Assembly (NCBI RefSeq): GCF_964355755.1 | Contig: NC_092679.1 | Coordinates: 24,614,432-24,678,431 of the forward strand | DNA: 64,000 nucleotides | Direction of reading: 5' to 3' | Source of the DNA: Antedon mediterranea | Lineage: Eukaryota; Echinodermata; Crinoidea; Comatulida; Antedonidae | Shown here: positions 45,330 to 57,300 of the stretch, in pieces | How the letters are laid out: every line of letters starts with the position of its first letter | Numbering within the stretch: position 1 is the first letter of the stretch | Program-made: the position numbers and the translations under genes | Notes under the pieces: model-generated | Told to the model about the DNA's origin: nothing | Seen by the model: only the letters and a program-made list of their open reading frames with translations | The model's database searches: none

Positions 45330-48300
45330 ATGATCTCGCGTGAGGGTGTAATTGCTGTACACGTAGGTACATACATACAATACATACTTGCTTGTATTTG
45401 TAGGTAGACCTAGCTAGGCCTAGGCCTGCACAGCCTAGCCTAGGTAGGCCTATTCCTTTTTGCTAAGGCTATTTATTGTTAAACAATATGGTCGACTTTT
45501 TTTTTGTCAATTAATTGCCAGAATGTTGTATTGTATAAATATGTTTCATTTTCCCAAAAAATGTTGAAACTAATATTGAGGGCAGTGTTATAACATCCGG
45601 CTGGCGTAGTCTAATAGAATAATAAGGTTAAATTAATATATTATTATTAATTTATTATTATATTTCCAAGGATCTTATTTCCACTAACGCCATTAAATGG
45701 TACTTGCTGAGTAATTAAAAAGCCATAAATATATATGGCTCTTTGTGTCTTGTGATTATGTCTAAAAGCGCCCTCTATAGTTTCAAAATAATAAAAAAAT
45801 AATGCTGATGTCATCATTTTAAGTAATTTATTACATACATAGTGTTATTTTCCCTACATTGAGGGTGCAATTTAGCAACAAACCAGAAAATCATGCTTAT
45901 GTATTAAATTACGAAAAATGATGACGTCATTGGTCATTTTATGCGTATGTAAAATCCAGGGAAAGTAAAATGAGGGTATGACTATGTAAAACGAAGGTTT
46001 TACAGTCAACCTTCTCATTTACGTATCCATTGGTCTGATGAGAGGCGTTCGTTCATTGCATATTTTGATACAAACAACAAATTACGAACCTAACTTGTGG
46101 CCCGAACGGGCTTCCGTAACTATATTTTAAAAGCCGCCACTTAATTATCTGGCGCCCGCCACTTAATAATTAGTACATGTCCCGTCACGTGACATGTACG
46201 TGCATTGGATCAGAGGCGATGTTGCATATGGAACGCCATCGCTGCCTCCGGGAGCAAACTTTAATTCTATTCGGCTCTTTTACAACCATTACGTTCGGCT
46301 CTTTTAGCATTCGCCGCATTTCTATTCGGCCCATTTACCATATTTACGATTAAAGAATAAGATGTGTTGAATAACCTAAAATTAATTCATCTTTTTACAA
46401 ATTTTGAGAGAGAAAGGGTATTATTATTGTTAAAAGTTAGGCTGACACTAGACTAGGCCATAAATCAAACCTTTTCTCTTTCAAAATAGTCAATAAGGTG
46501 GGACAATTGCAAGTTGACACATTAATCATGTCAATAAAATGATTAGTCATATTGAAATAGCCTTCAAATTCATTTAATTCAACCAACCAAACACTCTACA
46601 TGCTGCATCTATATGTTTTGTAAACTTTTCATAGACTCATTTCCAGCCGTTGATTTTCTTCCATTTGACGCCATGTAAAAGGTTAGAATTTAATTGCGCC
46701 GTATAAAAAAATAAAAAAGAGCCAAACGTAATGGTAAATGGGCCGAAAAGTTAAAATATTAAGTCTGGTCCGGACCGCATATATTTTACCTTTTCAAAGG
46801 TACTACTACAATCCGTAGCAGCAAGGGAAAATGTAATTCCCAGACAATAGTAGTTTTATTGAAAAATTTACAAACTAAGCTAAATTTATAGTATGGTCAT
46901 CAAGCTAGCCTTTGCAGTTCGCGATCAACAATGTCCTGTTTTCAATAAGCGGATGCACTCCAGCAGGCAGGGATGATGATTTCCTGGCACCGCCCTAGGC
47001 CTAGCCTAGTAAATGGCCTAGGCCTAGCCTAGTAAATGGCCATGGCCTAGCCTAGTAAATGGCCTAGGCCTATACTGTTAGACTTGAAATACACAGAATT
47101 TGTCTGTAATTATAACCTTGCTTTATTAGCGGTTTGCTTGCATTAATTGTTTTGGGATAGTTTAATAAATTAAGAAGATAATTAATAGTATGTAAAAGTT
47201 TTATCAACACATTTTTGACTGAGAAGATCGGCTGTACTGTACAGTGTTATAAATTGGTCAATTTTGAAATGTGATCCTGATCGATTACCTTCCAGATTCG
47301 TAATCTATGGAAAATTATGGTCTTGACTAACTGTTTTTTTTTTTGTTGGTAAAACACACCAACTGAAATTGAGCATTTTTATTATTCATATTTAGGTGCT
47401 GGGTATCATGCTCCCTCAAAAGAAGCCGATTACAATCAAGCATGTAAGCTGGCATGTGCAAGAGTAAGTTATCATAAACCTTTACTTAATTAACTTACAA
47501 CAAATTAATCATTTGTGTAAATTTAACCACTAAGGCTGTGTTTGGACTTTAAACTCAATTGCACATGTAATCTAAATTACTCTTTGGACTAACCAAATGA
47601 ACTGTTCTGTAAACAACAAATTTACACTACAAACTGATATTTACCCAGCAAGGTCATATTTCATGGTTCTTTACAATAGTAAGGTCAAATTGCTCCTTAT
47701 CTATCCACCTCATGACTTGGGTTTTTAAAACAACTGGGGTGGATTGCTATAAAACAGTCTTAACTGATGGTCTTAACTCCCCGATTAAAGCCGGCTTTAT
47801 CAGATAGACGGTCTTACTAAAGCCACCCCTGTTAGACCATTGCTATAAAACAGTCTTAGATAAGACCGCGTAAAGTAAGAAATTGAGGGCGTACTTTGCG
47901 TGTAGAATACCAAATAAGGTAATGTTCGTCACGCTTTTTCAATTCACAATCATAACAGTACGTACATTTCTACGCGAAAAAATCTATTCTAGGCCTATAT
48001 AAGAATAAAATCACCGTTATTATTTGATTTAACTAGGTATCCCAATGAAAAAATTCAGCTAAATTTTTTTACTTTTTCTTTCAGTTAACCATTAATTAAT
48101 TTTAATTAATTATTTGTAATTAGCATTTTGAAATTTAAATGATTGAAATCCGATTATCCGTTCTAAAGTTATGGTTATTTAAAGTGGTAAAAAATTATAC
48201 GATTTTTTGCCTAAAAATGGTGTTTTTTGCAGTTGAAATTGGAAGCATTTTTAAAAGGTTATAACTTTTACAATAATTATTTAAAAGTTTTGAATTTTGT

Positions 48301-51300
48301 TAAACCTATAGATATCACAGAGTTGTACAACTCTATTTTTTTTTATAGAGCCTCAACGAAACCTATTTTTTAAATTATTGGTCCGCAAAGTGGTAGGAAA
48401 GCATTTAGCGCCCATATTTGCTTGAATTCCCTAAAAAAATCTGATCTGATGATCTGTAACTTTTGAACTACTGTACTAATTCATTTAATTAGTTATCCGC
48501 TTGGTATACCAAGCGGATAACTCCTTGTTATTGTATGAGATCAACATTTTTTTTCTGTATTATTCTTCTTTCCTTCCTTCCTTTTTGTGAGTCGCGTTTC
48601 TCTAAAATGTGTAAACATAACATTTCATAACTTTGACAACATATGGGCATTTACGTGAAGTTGTGCACCTCCTATTTTTGAATGACGTCATAGTTGCGCA
48701 ACGTGACTTACGCGCAATTTTATGAATTTCAATGATTGATCATAGATTAAAAACCAAAAGTCATTTAGTATTGACACTTTGACAAAATTTAAGTCATATC
48801 GGGGGCAAACTTTCTACGGATTAAAAATGGCATGTTTCACAAAAAGTTACGCGCGCACGCGCATTTAAAATTTCAAAATGCGCAAAATTAAGTTCTAATC
48901 AACTTTTTACGCGTTTCATGTCATTTTGAGCATGTCAAAAATTCCCACGGGCGCGCGATTTTTTACGCACGCGGTGCGCACGTAGCGATAAAAACATATT
49001 TTTTTCTCTTGAATTATATTTTTCAAGCCTTTCCTAGTAATTTTGAAAACAATTTAGAACTTTTCCAGTTTAAATAACGCCATACGAACACGTTGAATTA
49101 GACAATTTGTGCGCGTTTTTTATGAAAAAGCTTAAAAAATCATCAAAATAATGTCTTTTTTTAAACAGTCATAGTTTCTAAAGTAAACCGTGAACCGTTT
49201 ATTTTTATTACAAAATCTAGAAGTTGATGAGTTGCAGATATCGGATCATGCATCGATAAGGCTAAAAAAACATTGTGACGTAATCGTATGGCCACACGAA
49301 TGTAAAGTATAGGATTTTTGTCTGTTTCGTTATTGCTCATCACATTCAATGGAGCGCATCACGCTTATCTGTATTCCTTTTTCTCCTATATTTATATATT
49401 GTCTAGGTTAATCAACTTTCTTTAGCATGAGATAAAAATATTTTAATTTTTATAACGTCATCATGCCTAAAAATTTTAATTACGTGGGTCATTAATTTCA
49501 TCTTTACAGTAAATTTTAATCTGTAATAGCTCGTAAGAATAAAATGTGATAATCACGATTAAAACGTTTTCTGGAAGCTATAGGATTGTAGATACGAATT
49601 CATGTAAACATTTTGCCAATCGGATGTTGTGACGTCATCATATTGCCAGTTGAATAAAAAAAGTCGTATTTTCATATTTTGCGTAATAGTTCATCACATT
49701 TAAATGTGCGCGCACCAACATTTTACGTATTCAAATTTCTTCTACACGTTAATATGTTGTTGCTAAGATAATTTTCTTCAGAAATTGCTATCGTTGTGTT
49801 GTTTTTTTTATGACGTCATCATGTTAAATATTTGAATTAAAGGCAGGTCCCATAATTCAGTTAATATGTCATATAATAATACAGTAGTACAATGTACACC
49901 AGCATAGTCTCTGATGTGAGCAAATTGTTGTTTGCCGCCCTCTGTATCATGTAGAATTAATGTCTCCTTTTATACACAGTGTACTGTATAATTATAATAG
50001 GCTACAAGGCGAAAATACAGGACCACCTCTTATTATAGTTTTTAACGTATGACGTGCACGTGGCATCTGTCGTGCGGATAACTAACTCGTCAAAGTGACG
50101 AGTTTCATGTCTAGTTTTTTTTGTACTTGTTAGAATGTAGTGTATATTTCATTAATAAATATTTTTTAGATGTGTATATGAAAAAAAAAATTGTTTAATG
50201 GTGAAATTTAAAATTATAAAAAAAAAAAATTAAAAAGTATGTTAAAAACGGTGTGTACTGTTTCCTTTCTTTTACACTAATTTTCGGTAAGTATAATTAT
50301 TAGAATATTTTAATATACTTTATATTTATAATTTCAATCATAAATACTATATAACTTTTGAATACGTAAAATCATTTAATATGATTATGACACCAAATCT
50401 AAGCCGGGCTGCTAAGTAAGAATGCTCTTTTAAGGCAAACGCACAATGGGTCAAAATAAACTCATTTAAAATAATCAATGTTAACTAAAACAAATAATTG
50501 TTTACCTGAATAGCATATATAACATTATAAAAATTGTTTTCTTTTCGTATTATTACGTTATTAAATTGAAAGTTTAGGCCAAGTCACGGCTTACTCGCGA
50601 TCAGTAGTTGCTCCCGTTAAAGTATTTCGGTCGCAGTTAATGACTTTCGACCGCCGTATACAGAGTCAAATGTAACGTTGCTAAATTAGCTTAATAAATT
50701 TCTTCGGTACATTTTAACCTAACGCATTTGCATTGTATACTTACTTGCATAATAAATCTTCCGCACATTACATCAATTTTAAGTTGTTATTACGGGATTT
50801 ACGCCTCATGCACCATTTTAAAATGTAGTTCGCACAATTACCATGCACAATACGTTTGTAATCTATGTTTTATCGATTTCAATGTAGATTTAGCTATAAT
50901 TTAATACCAAAATCCATAAAAATTTTTCAATAAATGGCAGGGCATCATTTATAAGGAGCGCCTGCGCAACCGCGCTCCTCAAAAGGCTTCGAGGAGAACA
51001 ATTTATCGTGCTCCTTAATTTTCAAAATAGAGCCTAGCTTTTGACAGTGTTGATTTTTCTGTCAAGAGGCCTAAAAACACGTGGATTTTTAAAAGTTAAA
51101 AATGTGAAAAACGCTTACAATGACAGGCCTAGAAATCTAGGTCTACTGTAGGCATGCCAAGATACCTGTTGTTGTTACTTTTATAATCCATGACATATAA
51201 ATAGAATTAGAGGTTAGCTGCCAACACTTGTTTTTGTTTTCGACTGGCGCCAACCCTGCCTGATGATGATCGCGACTATTCCTCGACTCGCGAACGAACA

Positions 51301-54300
51301 GCAGCGATCGATCATCATAAATTATAAAAGCTCGAGAAGGCGGCGGAGTGATACTCGACGACGACGAAGCAAAGTAAACAACAACAGAGTCTAGCTAGCT
51401 AGCTATCTAGTCTACTAATAAAACACGAGGCCGACCGGACGTACAACTTTTGTATACACGTGACGTGTGTAATCTCCCGATATGATGGAAAAGCTACAAG
51501 CAGTCCCTCGTTTTTAAGGATCAACAACCTTCAAGGAGAGCAATTAATCACGCTCCATCTCACAGTAGGTATCCCAATGAAAGCGCACAGAGGGGTATCA
51601 CTTTTGAAATATTGACGAAATTCGAAAAAGTAGTATGACTTTGATGTTAAATAAATCGTATTCAATCTTAATTAATACTTACAAAATTTATATTGTTTGA
51701 AAGTACTTGTTTTAATCTATGTATAAGTGTGTTTATAATTAAAATTAATTAATTAGTTGCCGAGAAAATGCGATTTTAAAACGGTTCTAAAATCCCGTCG
51801 AGCCGATTTCCGCGCGTTGAAAACCTCATCGGAAAATCCCCATCAGTTTTCAAAACACAATCGCACGATTACCATTGAAGCTAGCGGATTAATTTTTGTT
51901 GTATGTTATCAGGCTTTAAATAAGCTTTAATTTGATACGAAAATCGTCTTCTATTTAAATAGGTTTTTCGTAACGAAAAGTCAATTTTTGTGAAAAAAAA
52001 TCCAATTTTGATTCACCGTTTATGAAAAAATATTATGGATTTTGGTATTAAATTATAGCTAAATCTACATTGAAATCAATAAAACATAGTTTACAAACTT
52101 ATTGTGCATGGTAATTGAGCGAACTACATTTTAAAATGGTGCATGAGGCGTAAATCCCGTTCAAAATTTGAAAGATCCAACCATTATAATCCGGTGAATA
52201 TTGTAGTGAGTAAAATATTGTACTCAAAAATACGCGCGTGTTTGTTGTGGCGTTTTCCGTTAAATACATTAATGCACCCTATCAGCGAATGGTACGTTCC
52301 ATATTTTGAACACGTTGTTTAGTTTTCCTCGCTCGAGTTCGACCGGCTCGACGCGAGATGTGTGACAGCAGCGATGTCGGAGATTGACATGTCCTTTTCC
52401 GTCGTAGAATATCTGGTTTTACACATTAATTTAACAACTTAAAATTGATGTAATGTGCGGAAGATTTATTATGCAAGTATACAATGCAAATGCGTTAGGT
52501 TAAAATGTACCGAAGAAATTTATTAATCTAATTTACCAACGTTACATTTGATTCTGTATACGGCGGTCGAAAGTCATTAACTGCGACCGAAATACTTTAA
52601 CGGGAGCGACTACTGATCGCGAGTAAGCCGTGACTTGGCCTAAACTTTAGCTCCGTATTTCAATTTAATAACGTAATAATATGAAAAGAAAACAATTTTT
52701 ATAATGTTATATACTATTCAGGTAAATAATTAATTGTTTTAATTAACATTGATTATTTTAAATGAGTTTATTTTGACCCATATTGTGCGTTTGCCTTAAA
52801 AAAGAGCATATCTTACTTAGCAGCCTGGCTTAGATTTGGTGTCATAATCATACGGGCCTAAAATCTTGTTTTACGTATTCAAAAGTTAAATATAATAGTA
52901 TTTATGATTGAAATTATAAATATAAAGTATATTAAAATATTCTAATAATTATACTTACCGAAAATTAGTGTAAAAGAAAGGAAACAGTACACACCGTTTT
53001 TAACATACTTTTTCATTTTTTTTTTTTATAATTCGAAATTTCACCATTAAAAAATTATTTTTTTTTCATATACACATCTAAAATATATTTATTAATGAAA
53101 TATACACTACATTCTAACAAGTACAAAAAAAATAAAATGAATTAGTACAGTAGTTCAAAAGTTACAGATCATTGAAAAATTGCAGTTTTTTCATTTTTTA
53201 GGGAATTCCAGCAAAAATGGGCGCTAAATGCTTTCCTACCACTTTGCGGACCAATAATTTAAAAAATAGGTTTCGTTGAGGCTCCAAAAAAAATAGAGTT
53301 GTACAACTCTGTGATATCTATAGGTTTAACAAAATTCAAAACTTTTAACTAATTATTGTAAAAGTTATAACCTTTTAAAAATGCTTCCAATTTCAACTGC
53401 AAAAAACACCATTTTTAGGCAAAAAATCGTATATTTTTTTACCACTTTAAATAACCATAACTTTAGAATGGGTAATCGGATTTCAATCATTTAAATTGCA
53501 AAATGCTAATTACATTAAGTTCTTTATGGTTAACTGAAAGAAAAAGTAAAAAAATTAATCTGAATTTTTTCATTGGGATACCTACTCACAGTGCGAGGTT
53601 AGGTACCAAACAAGGGGATTCCCCTGCCTGCATTCAAGGACGAGTTTACTTCATCGCCTCATAGTGCATCCAGTACGGTGTCATAGAAATACCTCCTTTA
53701 CAGCAACCAATAATTGTTCCTTTTATGCTTACTGCATGTTTTTATAGAACGAGTTTATAAAATATATTTAATTTTAAAAGGAAACATTAATAGGAGGCCT
53801 AAATATAATGTTTATTATTTAAAAAGCTTAGTTGTGTCATTGATGGATTATTTCTTCAAAAGTTCCAACCAATTTTGGTCACTCAAATCCTCCTCAAAAC
53901 ACGTGCTGACGTGTGACGTCATCATCTTCTAGAAGGTAGCTCTCCCCAAATTGTGCGTGCATGTGTGACACATGTAAACACAATTAAATATCTTTCTTAA
54001 TTATTTTGAAATGATACTTTGTAACTTATTATCAATATTTTAATGGCTATTGCATGTTAGAATTGTATAATTTATGAAATACAGGTAGTAGGCCAACAAG
54101 CTAGGCTAGAAAAGCTAGGCCTAGGCTAAAGACATGTTGGTCAGGATTCTCCAGGCAGGCTCCTGAAACCCAATCTAGGCCTACCCAGGCCATACAAAAA
54201 ATTGGATTGATTTTTTTCAATGACGATCCCCACGGAAAATATTGTGTGTGAATGTGGGTGTGGGAGGGGAGTGGGGAGGGAGGAATTTTGGGGAGAGTAA

Positions 54301-57300
54301 TTTAATTATCAAAAGTAATAAATGATATAATTGGGAGGGGTGGGGATAAATTCCCTTGGGCAAAAAAAAAATGTAAACAAAATTAATAAGGGCCAGCCAT
54401 TTTTAATAAGGGCGACCATCCTTCAACTTCAACTGGCCCTGCTGGCCACTATGGTTTAAAGGTTAATTTTCAGCCCTGTATTTATTAATAAAAGATTTAT
54501 AGATTATAATATAATAGATTATAGCGGCAGCATGCGCTAATAATTTTTTTTTGGTAGCAAAACCAATAGAATTTAACTTTTGTGGTCAAATTCAAACATT
54601 GTAATTTTTTTACATATTTACATAAACATTTGAAGAGAGCGATTTAAAATTTTTGCAAGGAGAGCGAATTGCTCTCCTCTGTGATTTGAGGAGAGCGATT
54701 TGTTGCTCTCCTGGGTTTTGCATACGTGATGCCCTGAAACGGTGATTCAAAATTGGTTTTTTGTCACCAAAATTGATATTTCGTAAAACCTATTTATAGA
54801 AGACGATTTTCACATCAAATTAAAGCTCATTTAAAGCCTGATAACATACAACAAAAATTAATCCGCTAGCTTCAATGGTAATCGTGCGATCGTGTTTTGA
54901 AAACTGATGGGGATTTTCCGATGAGGTTTTCAACGCGCGGAAATCGGCTCGACAGGATTTTAGAACCGTTTTAAAATCGCATTTTCTCGGCAACTACTTC
55001 ATTAATTTTAATTGTAAACACACTTATACATAGATTAAAACAAGTACTTTCAAACAATATAAATTTTTAAAGTATTAATTAAGAGTGAACACGATTTATT
55101 TACCGTCAAAGTCATACTACTTATTCTTTTATAATATAATATAATTTTTTTAATATTTCAAAAGTGATGCCCCTCTGTACGCTTTCATTGGGATACCTAA
55201 TTTAACACTTAAAACTCGTTCAATTGGTTATCTTTGACGATAAATAATACGAAAAGCAACAAAAAGAGAGGTTTAAGACTGCTTTAAGACTCCTTCAAGT
55301 AGGCTTTAATTTTAAAGACCGTTTACAGGTTAGACCGCGGTATAGCAATGGTCTATAATATAAGACTACTTGCTACATCACGAATTATAGCCGGCTAAGC
55401 GCTAAGACCGGTTATAGACCGCTTATAGCAATCCGCCCCAGGTGGTTTGTCTCTAAATTTACACCACATGCGACCATTAAACATGTAAATTGTACAGTCT
55501 GAACAGGCTCCATGTAGTTAACACAGCCGATTTTGATGGCAAAAAGAAATGTTAAGCCAAATTTTAGGGAATGATACAATTATTTTTTAAAAAACCTGTT
55601 TTTATTAAAACATGTTATGTGAGATGTACATGGCAAAACTGAGTTTTATATTTTTTGTATACATAAATGAAGACATTAAATTGCACGGCTGTTTCTGTAC
55701 AGAACATTAAAGTGAAGCTCCACCCATTTTTCCAGATCTTTCTATTTCTGGTATTTTTTATTAAGTATACATTGCGCAATTTTGCATCAATAGACACTTC
55801 CCCAATATACTAGGGAGTATGATCATGTGACATTTTTCAAGATCACAGACTGCAGCTGGCATGGCTGGCGATCTGTTCTCGTTGCGGTGTTGGTTTTTGA
55901 CTGGTGAAAAGTACATTAAAACATTCTGGATGTTACCGTATCATGTTTTCACAGTGCAATGATGTGACTATGAGATTATTACTAAAATATCAAATTTAAA
56001 AAGATCAGAGAAAGGCGTGGCTCTATATTCAATAAAGCTAGGCCTACTACTAGATATGTACCAATGCTGCTTGGCCTAACTAGGCCGTGATAGCCTTACA
56101 GCAGTGAAGTTTGTTCTGGTACACAGCCCCGCCCGAACTACCTATGATAGGCTACTTGAATAATTGCTCTTCAGTCAGGCCTAAGTTTCCATACATCCAT
56201 ACTATTCTGTGATGTTGGCAATACTGTAACTTTGTTTGTAGAGGATTTTGTGTTTCAAAATTTAAAATGTGCGAGAAAAGCCTGGAATGATAAATGGGGC
56301 GAAACAACCAAGCCTTTTCAAGCCCATGAATACATAGGCCTAGACATGGTAGCTAGGCTAAGTAGGCATCCTAGCTATGCCTAGTTCAGTTGATTAAGAT
56401 TATGCTGTTGTAACTAGTGCAAATCATGATGTTACATGTAAAACATACTGACATTTTTATCTGAAATATTACTTGGGCCTAAACAAATTGCATTATTTGT
56501 GTGTATAAAATTGATTCGCCATTTTTCGACACTATAATTTACCAAAAGTTTACCAATACACCAACGTGTTCACCACGTTGACTAAAACACGTCCGTTGCC
56601 AAGTGTAATGTGTTTCGCGATGTACTGTATTATTAATAAGAAATTTACAGTGATTATTATAATAAATGTATATTTTGCATGTTTTTTTTTTATAGGGCAT
56701 TGAAATGTTACAGAGCCGTTCTTCTTCTTTAGCTACATTAGTTGCTGTTATGAAAATATTAGAGGTAAAATCTATTTTATCAAACAAATCAAAATTAATA
56801 TTTGTGTGATATCTTTCTACAGTACTGCATTGAATAACTTGGATGGAAGCACTCATTTGTGTCTCTTCGTTTGTTATTTGAATGCACATTTGAATGCTAT
56901 TTGAGTATAAACAAAACTATTAGCTGAAAATATAATTCGGAAATAATTATACAGAAAGCTGGTCGGTGACCTGCTGCATGATCGACATGGTTCTCGCCAA
57001 TCACTTCGCCTTGTCTGGCACAACTAGCTCCCGACCAGCACTTTGTTAAGACTGATATTGGCCTCAATACTTTGTTTCTATTAATTCGTTCTATTACAAA
57101 ATAGGATGATCCGTTTACTAATTCTGGAACGGGCTCGAACCTGACTTTTCATGGCACAGTAGAATGTGATGCTAGTATAATGGATGGTAAAACTAGATTG
57201 TCCGCTTCTGTTGGAGCCTTACAAGGTAAAAAAAAATTAGCTACCTTTTCAACTAGTGTCTTTGGGCCTGTTTCTATAGAGCAGAGAATATGGTTTTGAA

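Follow-up and report, generated by a model that had tools for sequence, protein, structure and literature searches.

The P superfamily of DNA transposons includes two described groups that stand closest to the main family treated here. The target duplication of Galileo, a member of the Galileo/1360 branch in Drosophila, has the consensus GTANTAC (PMC4168063). In Anopheles gambiae, MITEs derived from P elements are non-coding and have ends similar to those found on autonomous P elements in that genome (PMC1562414). A further point of comparison is the Helentron group, whose HINE / DINE-1 elements are recognized by a set of hallmark features (PMC4067079, PMC7492417). Lastly, intronic nested transposons in general allow the order of their layers to be read from the interruptions.

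This reading can be applied in the crinoid Antedon mediterranea, where a window of 64,000 nucleotides (the whole stretch of DNA that was analysed) contains five transposon insertions stacked in one intron of TASP1, two of them from a single family, X. An outer element, W, holds a first X copy (X1), X1 holds two further elements (Z and Y), and Y holds a second X copy (X2) in the orientation opposite to X1. Unlike intronic nested transposons generally, this stack has two copies of one family in different layers. Transposon nesting of this sort is ordinary genome biology, of which the locus is a clean example; what is new is the proposed placement of X in the P superfamily, and the families are new ones of known kinds.

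The nest lies between TASP1 exons, at about 47394-47463 upstream and at 56696-56764 and from 57105 onward downstream. A tblastn search with a human TASP1 sequence as the probe gave matches at 47377-47463, 57105, 58146 and 58739. The upstream exon (GAGYHAPSKEADYNQACKLACAR; 47394..47463, + strand) was matched with an E value of 4e-4 and is followed by the donor GTAAGT at 47464. The downstream exon region (DDPFTNSGTGSNLTFHGTVECDASIMDG...; 57105..57290, + strand, the latter position being the end of the match rather than the exact exon end) was matched at 1e-11 and also gives an Asparaginase_2 match. A probable exon at 56696..56764 (+ strand; GIEMLQSRSSSLATLVAVMKILE), with AG and GT borders, gives the best gap-free match to the human TASP1 segment missing from the tblastn matches and so supplies that segment. 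The intron thus runs from about 47464 to 56695 (9.2 kb), and the nest, at 7.7 kb, makes up 83% of it. The initial annotation had placed the nest in TASP1 intron 2; its intronic position is borne out by exons on both sides, whereas the number finds no support, as no TASP1 exon upstream of that at 47394-47463 was found within the window.

The X terminus, TAGGTATCCCAATGAAA, is present at exactly four places in the window, namely 48034 (+), 51566 (+), 53568 (-) and 55183 (-), while shuffled sequence gives a mean of 0.31 matches when up to three mismatches are allowed. The four termini form two inverted pairs, each with its own perfect 7-bp duplication, exactly as had been claimed. X1 (48034..55199, + strand, in pieces 48034-48488, 50115-50937 and 54737-55199) is flanked by ATTTAAC at 48027-48033 and 55200-55206, and X2 (51566..53584, - strand) by CTCACAG at 51559-51565 and 53585-53591. 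The further claim that removing Y and Z restores X1 to the order of X2 also stands: without them, X1 (1741 bp) is colinear from end to end with reverse-complemented X2 (2019 bp), apart from further small indels in X1 and one internal segment of about 280 bp that is absent from X1 and present in X2 and other genomic copies. An inverted-repeat scan recovers the same X1 and X2 arms.

In the genome assembly, of 354 Mb in 18 contigs, X is a non-autonomous family of roughly 100 copies, about 2.0 kb in length, that carries no transposase. Perfect 17-bp X termini occur 200 times, against none for a reversed-pattern control, and 14 of the fetched copies of about 2.0 kb differ from their consensus by 0.2-4.7%, most of them by 0.2-1%. 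Other copies have the same borders, with perfect 7-bp duplications in 26 of 30 pairs (21 of 25, and all of 5 more) and no matching duplication in the remaining four; none of 20 tested duplications reaches 8 bp. T stands at position 2 in 20 of 21 duplications and A at position 6 in all 21. The longest X pairs (L031-L036) were rejected as coding partners, being X copies interrupted by other insertions, which in L033 and L036 are Z-related sequence.

Target duplications in the P superfamily measure 7 or 8 bp, and the length of 7 bp seen here suggested its Galileo branch. There are at least 35 P-transposase matches in the genome, and no X ends were found within 1.5 kb of 30 P-transposase loci. An autonomous relative came to light only when ends carrying T at position 15 were considered and a wider region was fetched: ends of the form TAGGTATCCCAATGT, of which there are 63 exact occurrences, led to an element of 7633 bp at C3:37946447-37954079 with 14-bp ends identical to those of X and a perfect CTTTAAG duplication. 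Compared with X2, it is 68% identical over 0.76 kb at the 5' side and 70% over 0.33 kb at the 3' side, with a middle block at 73%. Its 794-aa ORF contains a TNP-like RNaseH_N domain (Pfam, 3e-26) and a GTP-binding domain (6.5e-18), and its best match among solved structures in the PDB is the Drosophila P transposase 6p5a (1.5e-14). The N-terminal THAP domain, a feature of P-superfamily transposases, was found neither in this ORF nor in a small number of other short ORFs scanned in the element, and an unrecognised exon could possibly hold it. No autonomous partner with exactly the ends of X was found, the nearest sharing 14 bp and about 70% identity. Because it has ends and sequence in common with an element coding for a P-type transposase, X is classified here, on sequence grounds, as a non-autonomous family of the P superfamily.

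The transposase region of the relative is present in three copies (C1:2823415, C3:37950354 and C8:6208861) that are more than 99% identical over 3.4 kb and have open frames of equal length, which suggests recent activity. For the two near-identical copies on C1 and C8, the 5' ends did not lie where expected, which leaves a single coding copy delimited in full. The C3 element also has a 334-aa ORF (L081:3145-4149, +), on the other strand from the transposase, with no significant Pfam match.

X has several features of the Galileo/1360 branch: its 7-bp palindromic duplications have T second and A sixth (PMC4168063), the transposase of its autonomous relative is P-type, and there are more non-autonomous than coding copies. 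It differs in its end sequence, TAGGTATCCCAATG, and has short inverted ends where Galileo has long inverted repeats. The autonomous relative differs from Galileo/1360 in its length of 7.6 kb, in the extra 334-aa ORF on the other strand and in the transposase ORF, where no THAP domain was detected. In comparison with the P-derived MITEs of Anopheles gambiae, X is likewise non-coding with ends resembling an autonomous P element of the same genome, but it is not miniature, being about 2 kb long, and it shares only about 70% identity with its nearest coding relative.

The outermost element, W, is about 0.53 kb in length and is interrupted by X1 (47737..55438, + strand). It has the terminal inverted repeat GGGTGGATTGCTATAA / TTATAGCAATCCGCCC and is flanked by CTG (47734-47736) and CAG (55439-55441). 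At least 40 full-length copies of 530-536 bp are 95-97% identical to W minus X1. W appears to make 3-bp CWG duplications, as the ends of about half of 10 copies fit this type and the rest mismatch or differ. PIF/Harbinger elements, which were considered for W, have a 3-bp target duplication that is usually TWA, and no transposase was linked to the W family. The left end of W contains a 96-bp direct repeat (window 47743-47762 and 47839-47858), which is expanded at C6:27490581-27492170 into a tandem array of about 11 units.

Y, of about 1.8 kb, lies in X1 and is interrupted by X2 (50938..54736, + strand; ends CAGGGCATCA / TGATGCCCTG). Its 6-bp duplication in the window, AAATGG (50932-50937) and AAACGG (54737-54742), has a single C-to-T difference, and 6-bp duplications are present in all nine other copies with both ends readable. 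As a hAT element would need an 8-bp target duplication, that assignment was rejected. With X2 removed, Y gives a contiguous 1773-bp match, at 95%, to a copy at C4:31921948-31923720.

Z (about 48490..50114, + strand), delimited by end comparison, also lies in X1. At its 5' side, which reads AGTTATCCGCTTGGTATACCAAGCGGATAACT, is the subterminal repeat AGTTATCCGC with a palindrome, together with an inverted copy; at its 3' side GCGGATAACT is followed by AACTCGTCAAAGTGACGAGTT, giving a palindrome, with the hairpin arms AACTCGTCA/TGACGAGTT, and the element ends in CTAG before T. The window copy and seven others have no target duplication and have T on both sides, a result that the empty X site also supports. 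By these features Z is most readily assigned to the Helentron-associated interspersed elements (HINEs). As in HINE / DINE-1, there are subterminal inverted repeats, a 5' inverted copy, a 3' palindrome, insertion into T-rich sequence without target duplication, and tandem copies; unlike these, the window copy is without a central satellite array. Other full-length Z copies are 99-100% identical, with 2474 candidate places in the genome. Tandem arrays of Z with units of about 1.5 kb occur at C6:5832354-5840497, C11:14202915-14210843 and elsewhere, the older units being 77-86% identical to Z and the last units 98-100%.

The layers are delimited by borders, duplications and empty sites observed in the assembly, and are assigned to families by common ends. 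In all 10 fetched W copies the empty X1 site has the predicted junction ATTATTTGATTTAACACTTAAAACTC, with a substitution a few bases downstream of it in one, and the empty X2 site is as predicted in five other Y copies, one of which has a single substitution inside the 7-bp target. Because of the nesting topology, the order of insertion is W, X1, Y, X2, with Z at any time after X1, as the initial annotation had proposed. The locus is thus almost certainly the product of successive insertions into one TASP1 intron. W would have entered the intron first, followed by X1 into W with its 7-bp duplication. Y would then have inserted into X1 with a 6-bp duplication, followed by another X copy, X2, into Y in the opposite orientation, and Z would have inserted elsewhere in X1 without a duplication. 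X would presumably have been moved in trans, by cut-and-paste, by a P-type transposase like the one encoded by the 7.6-kb relative, and Z probably by rolling-circle movement.

Divergence from the family consensus is broadly in line with the nesting and serves as a second check on the order, independent of the empty sites, in that it separates the older outer layers (W and X1) from the younger inner ones (Y, X2 and Z). The values are 2.63% for W, 4.29% for X1, 0.81% for Y, 1.34% for X2 and 0.25% for Z, and are relative ages only, because the consensus sets are small (five copies each for Y and Z) and the W, Y and Z copies were picked by similarity to the query. By these values X1 predates X2 (Fisher p 3e-8), Y (p 9e-11) and Z (p 4e-17), and W predates Y (p 0.003) and Z (p 3e-6). 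Two pairs are inseparable by this clock, W and X1 (p 0.095) and Y and X2 (p 0.15), and their point estimates, with X1 and X2 as the more diverged members, are the reverse of the nesting order.

Misassembly, or the merging of haplotypes in repeats, could in principle have made the two X copies or the whole stack, as high-copy repeats crowd the locus and Z copies hardly differ from one another. Such an origin is scarcely credible given that X1 and X2 are several percent apart, with an indel of about 280 bp and different perfect 7-bp duplications, and that all junctions are exact to the base and agree with what empty copies elsewhere predict; an assembly duplication of X was rejected on the same differences in duplication and sequence. 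It is also improbable that X belongs to another superfamily that happens to have 7-bp duplications and similar short ends. X encodes no transposase, and the THAP domain went undetected in the partner ORF, but about 1.2 kb of X aligns in several ordered blocks to an element with a P-type transposase, the same ends and a 7-bp duplication, and the duplication motif matches that of Galileo.

More weight, though still unlikely, falls to the second X in the stack being a local hop, as opposed to a separate insertion by chance. Jumping to nearby sites is a known habit of P elements. On C1-C4, 56 X copies form 8 neighbour pairs less than 20 kb apart, where 0.4 would be expected at random. The five clustered copies that were tested have distinct perfect 7-bp duplications and are therefore separate insertions, and segmental duplication was rejected for these neighbours on the same grounds. 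However, X1 and X2 differ in age (4.3% against 1.3%), and the copies nearest to X2 are other young ones and not X1, so X2 was not directly derived from X1; moreover, the clustering may merely mark insertion-tolerant regions. Either local hopping or regional tolerance would make repeat insertion at one locus less surprising.

The initial annotation also suggested that the two X copies could form a long hairpin in the TASP1 pre-mRNA. When 50115-53132 is folded at minimum energy, X2 pairs with 793 of the 823 bases in the middle piece of X1, so that the part of this suggestion that holds is a predicted capacity for pairing, with the hairpin an energetically plausible possibility. The opposite orientation of X1 and X2 had an even chance of arising. 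A broader scheme, in which the P-type transposase prefers nearby sites, X re-enters its own neighbourhood and the inverted copies form a TASP1 duplex that is edited or alters splicing, is very improbable. Should the inverted X copies indeed pair into duplex RNA, TASP1 would be an obvious gene in which to look for intronic effects on editing and splicing.

The use of the locus lies in transposon annotation and dating, and no expectation is overturned by it. Four transposon families can be placed here in a relative chronology that checks itself, and the locus also leads to what is probably a P-superfamily group in an animal genome, consisting of a non-autonomous family of about 2 kb and a coding relative with near-identical copies.
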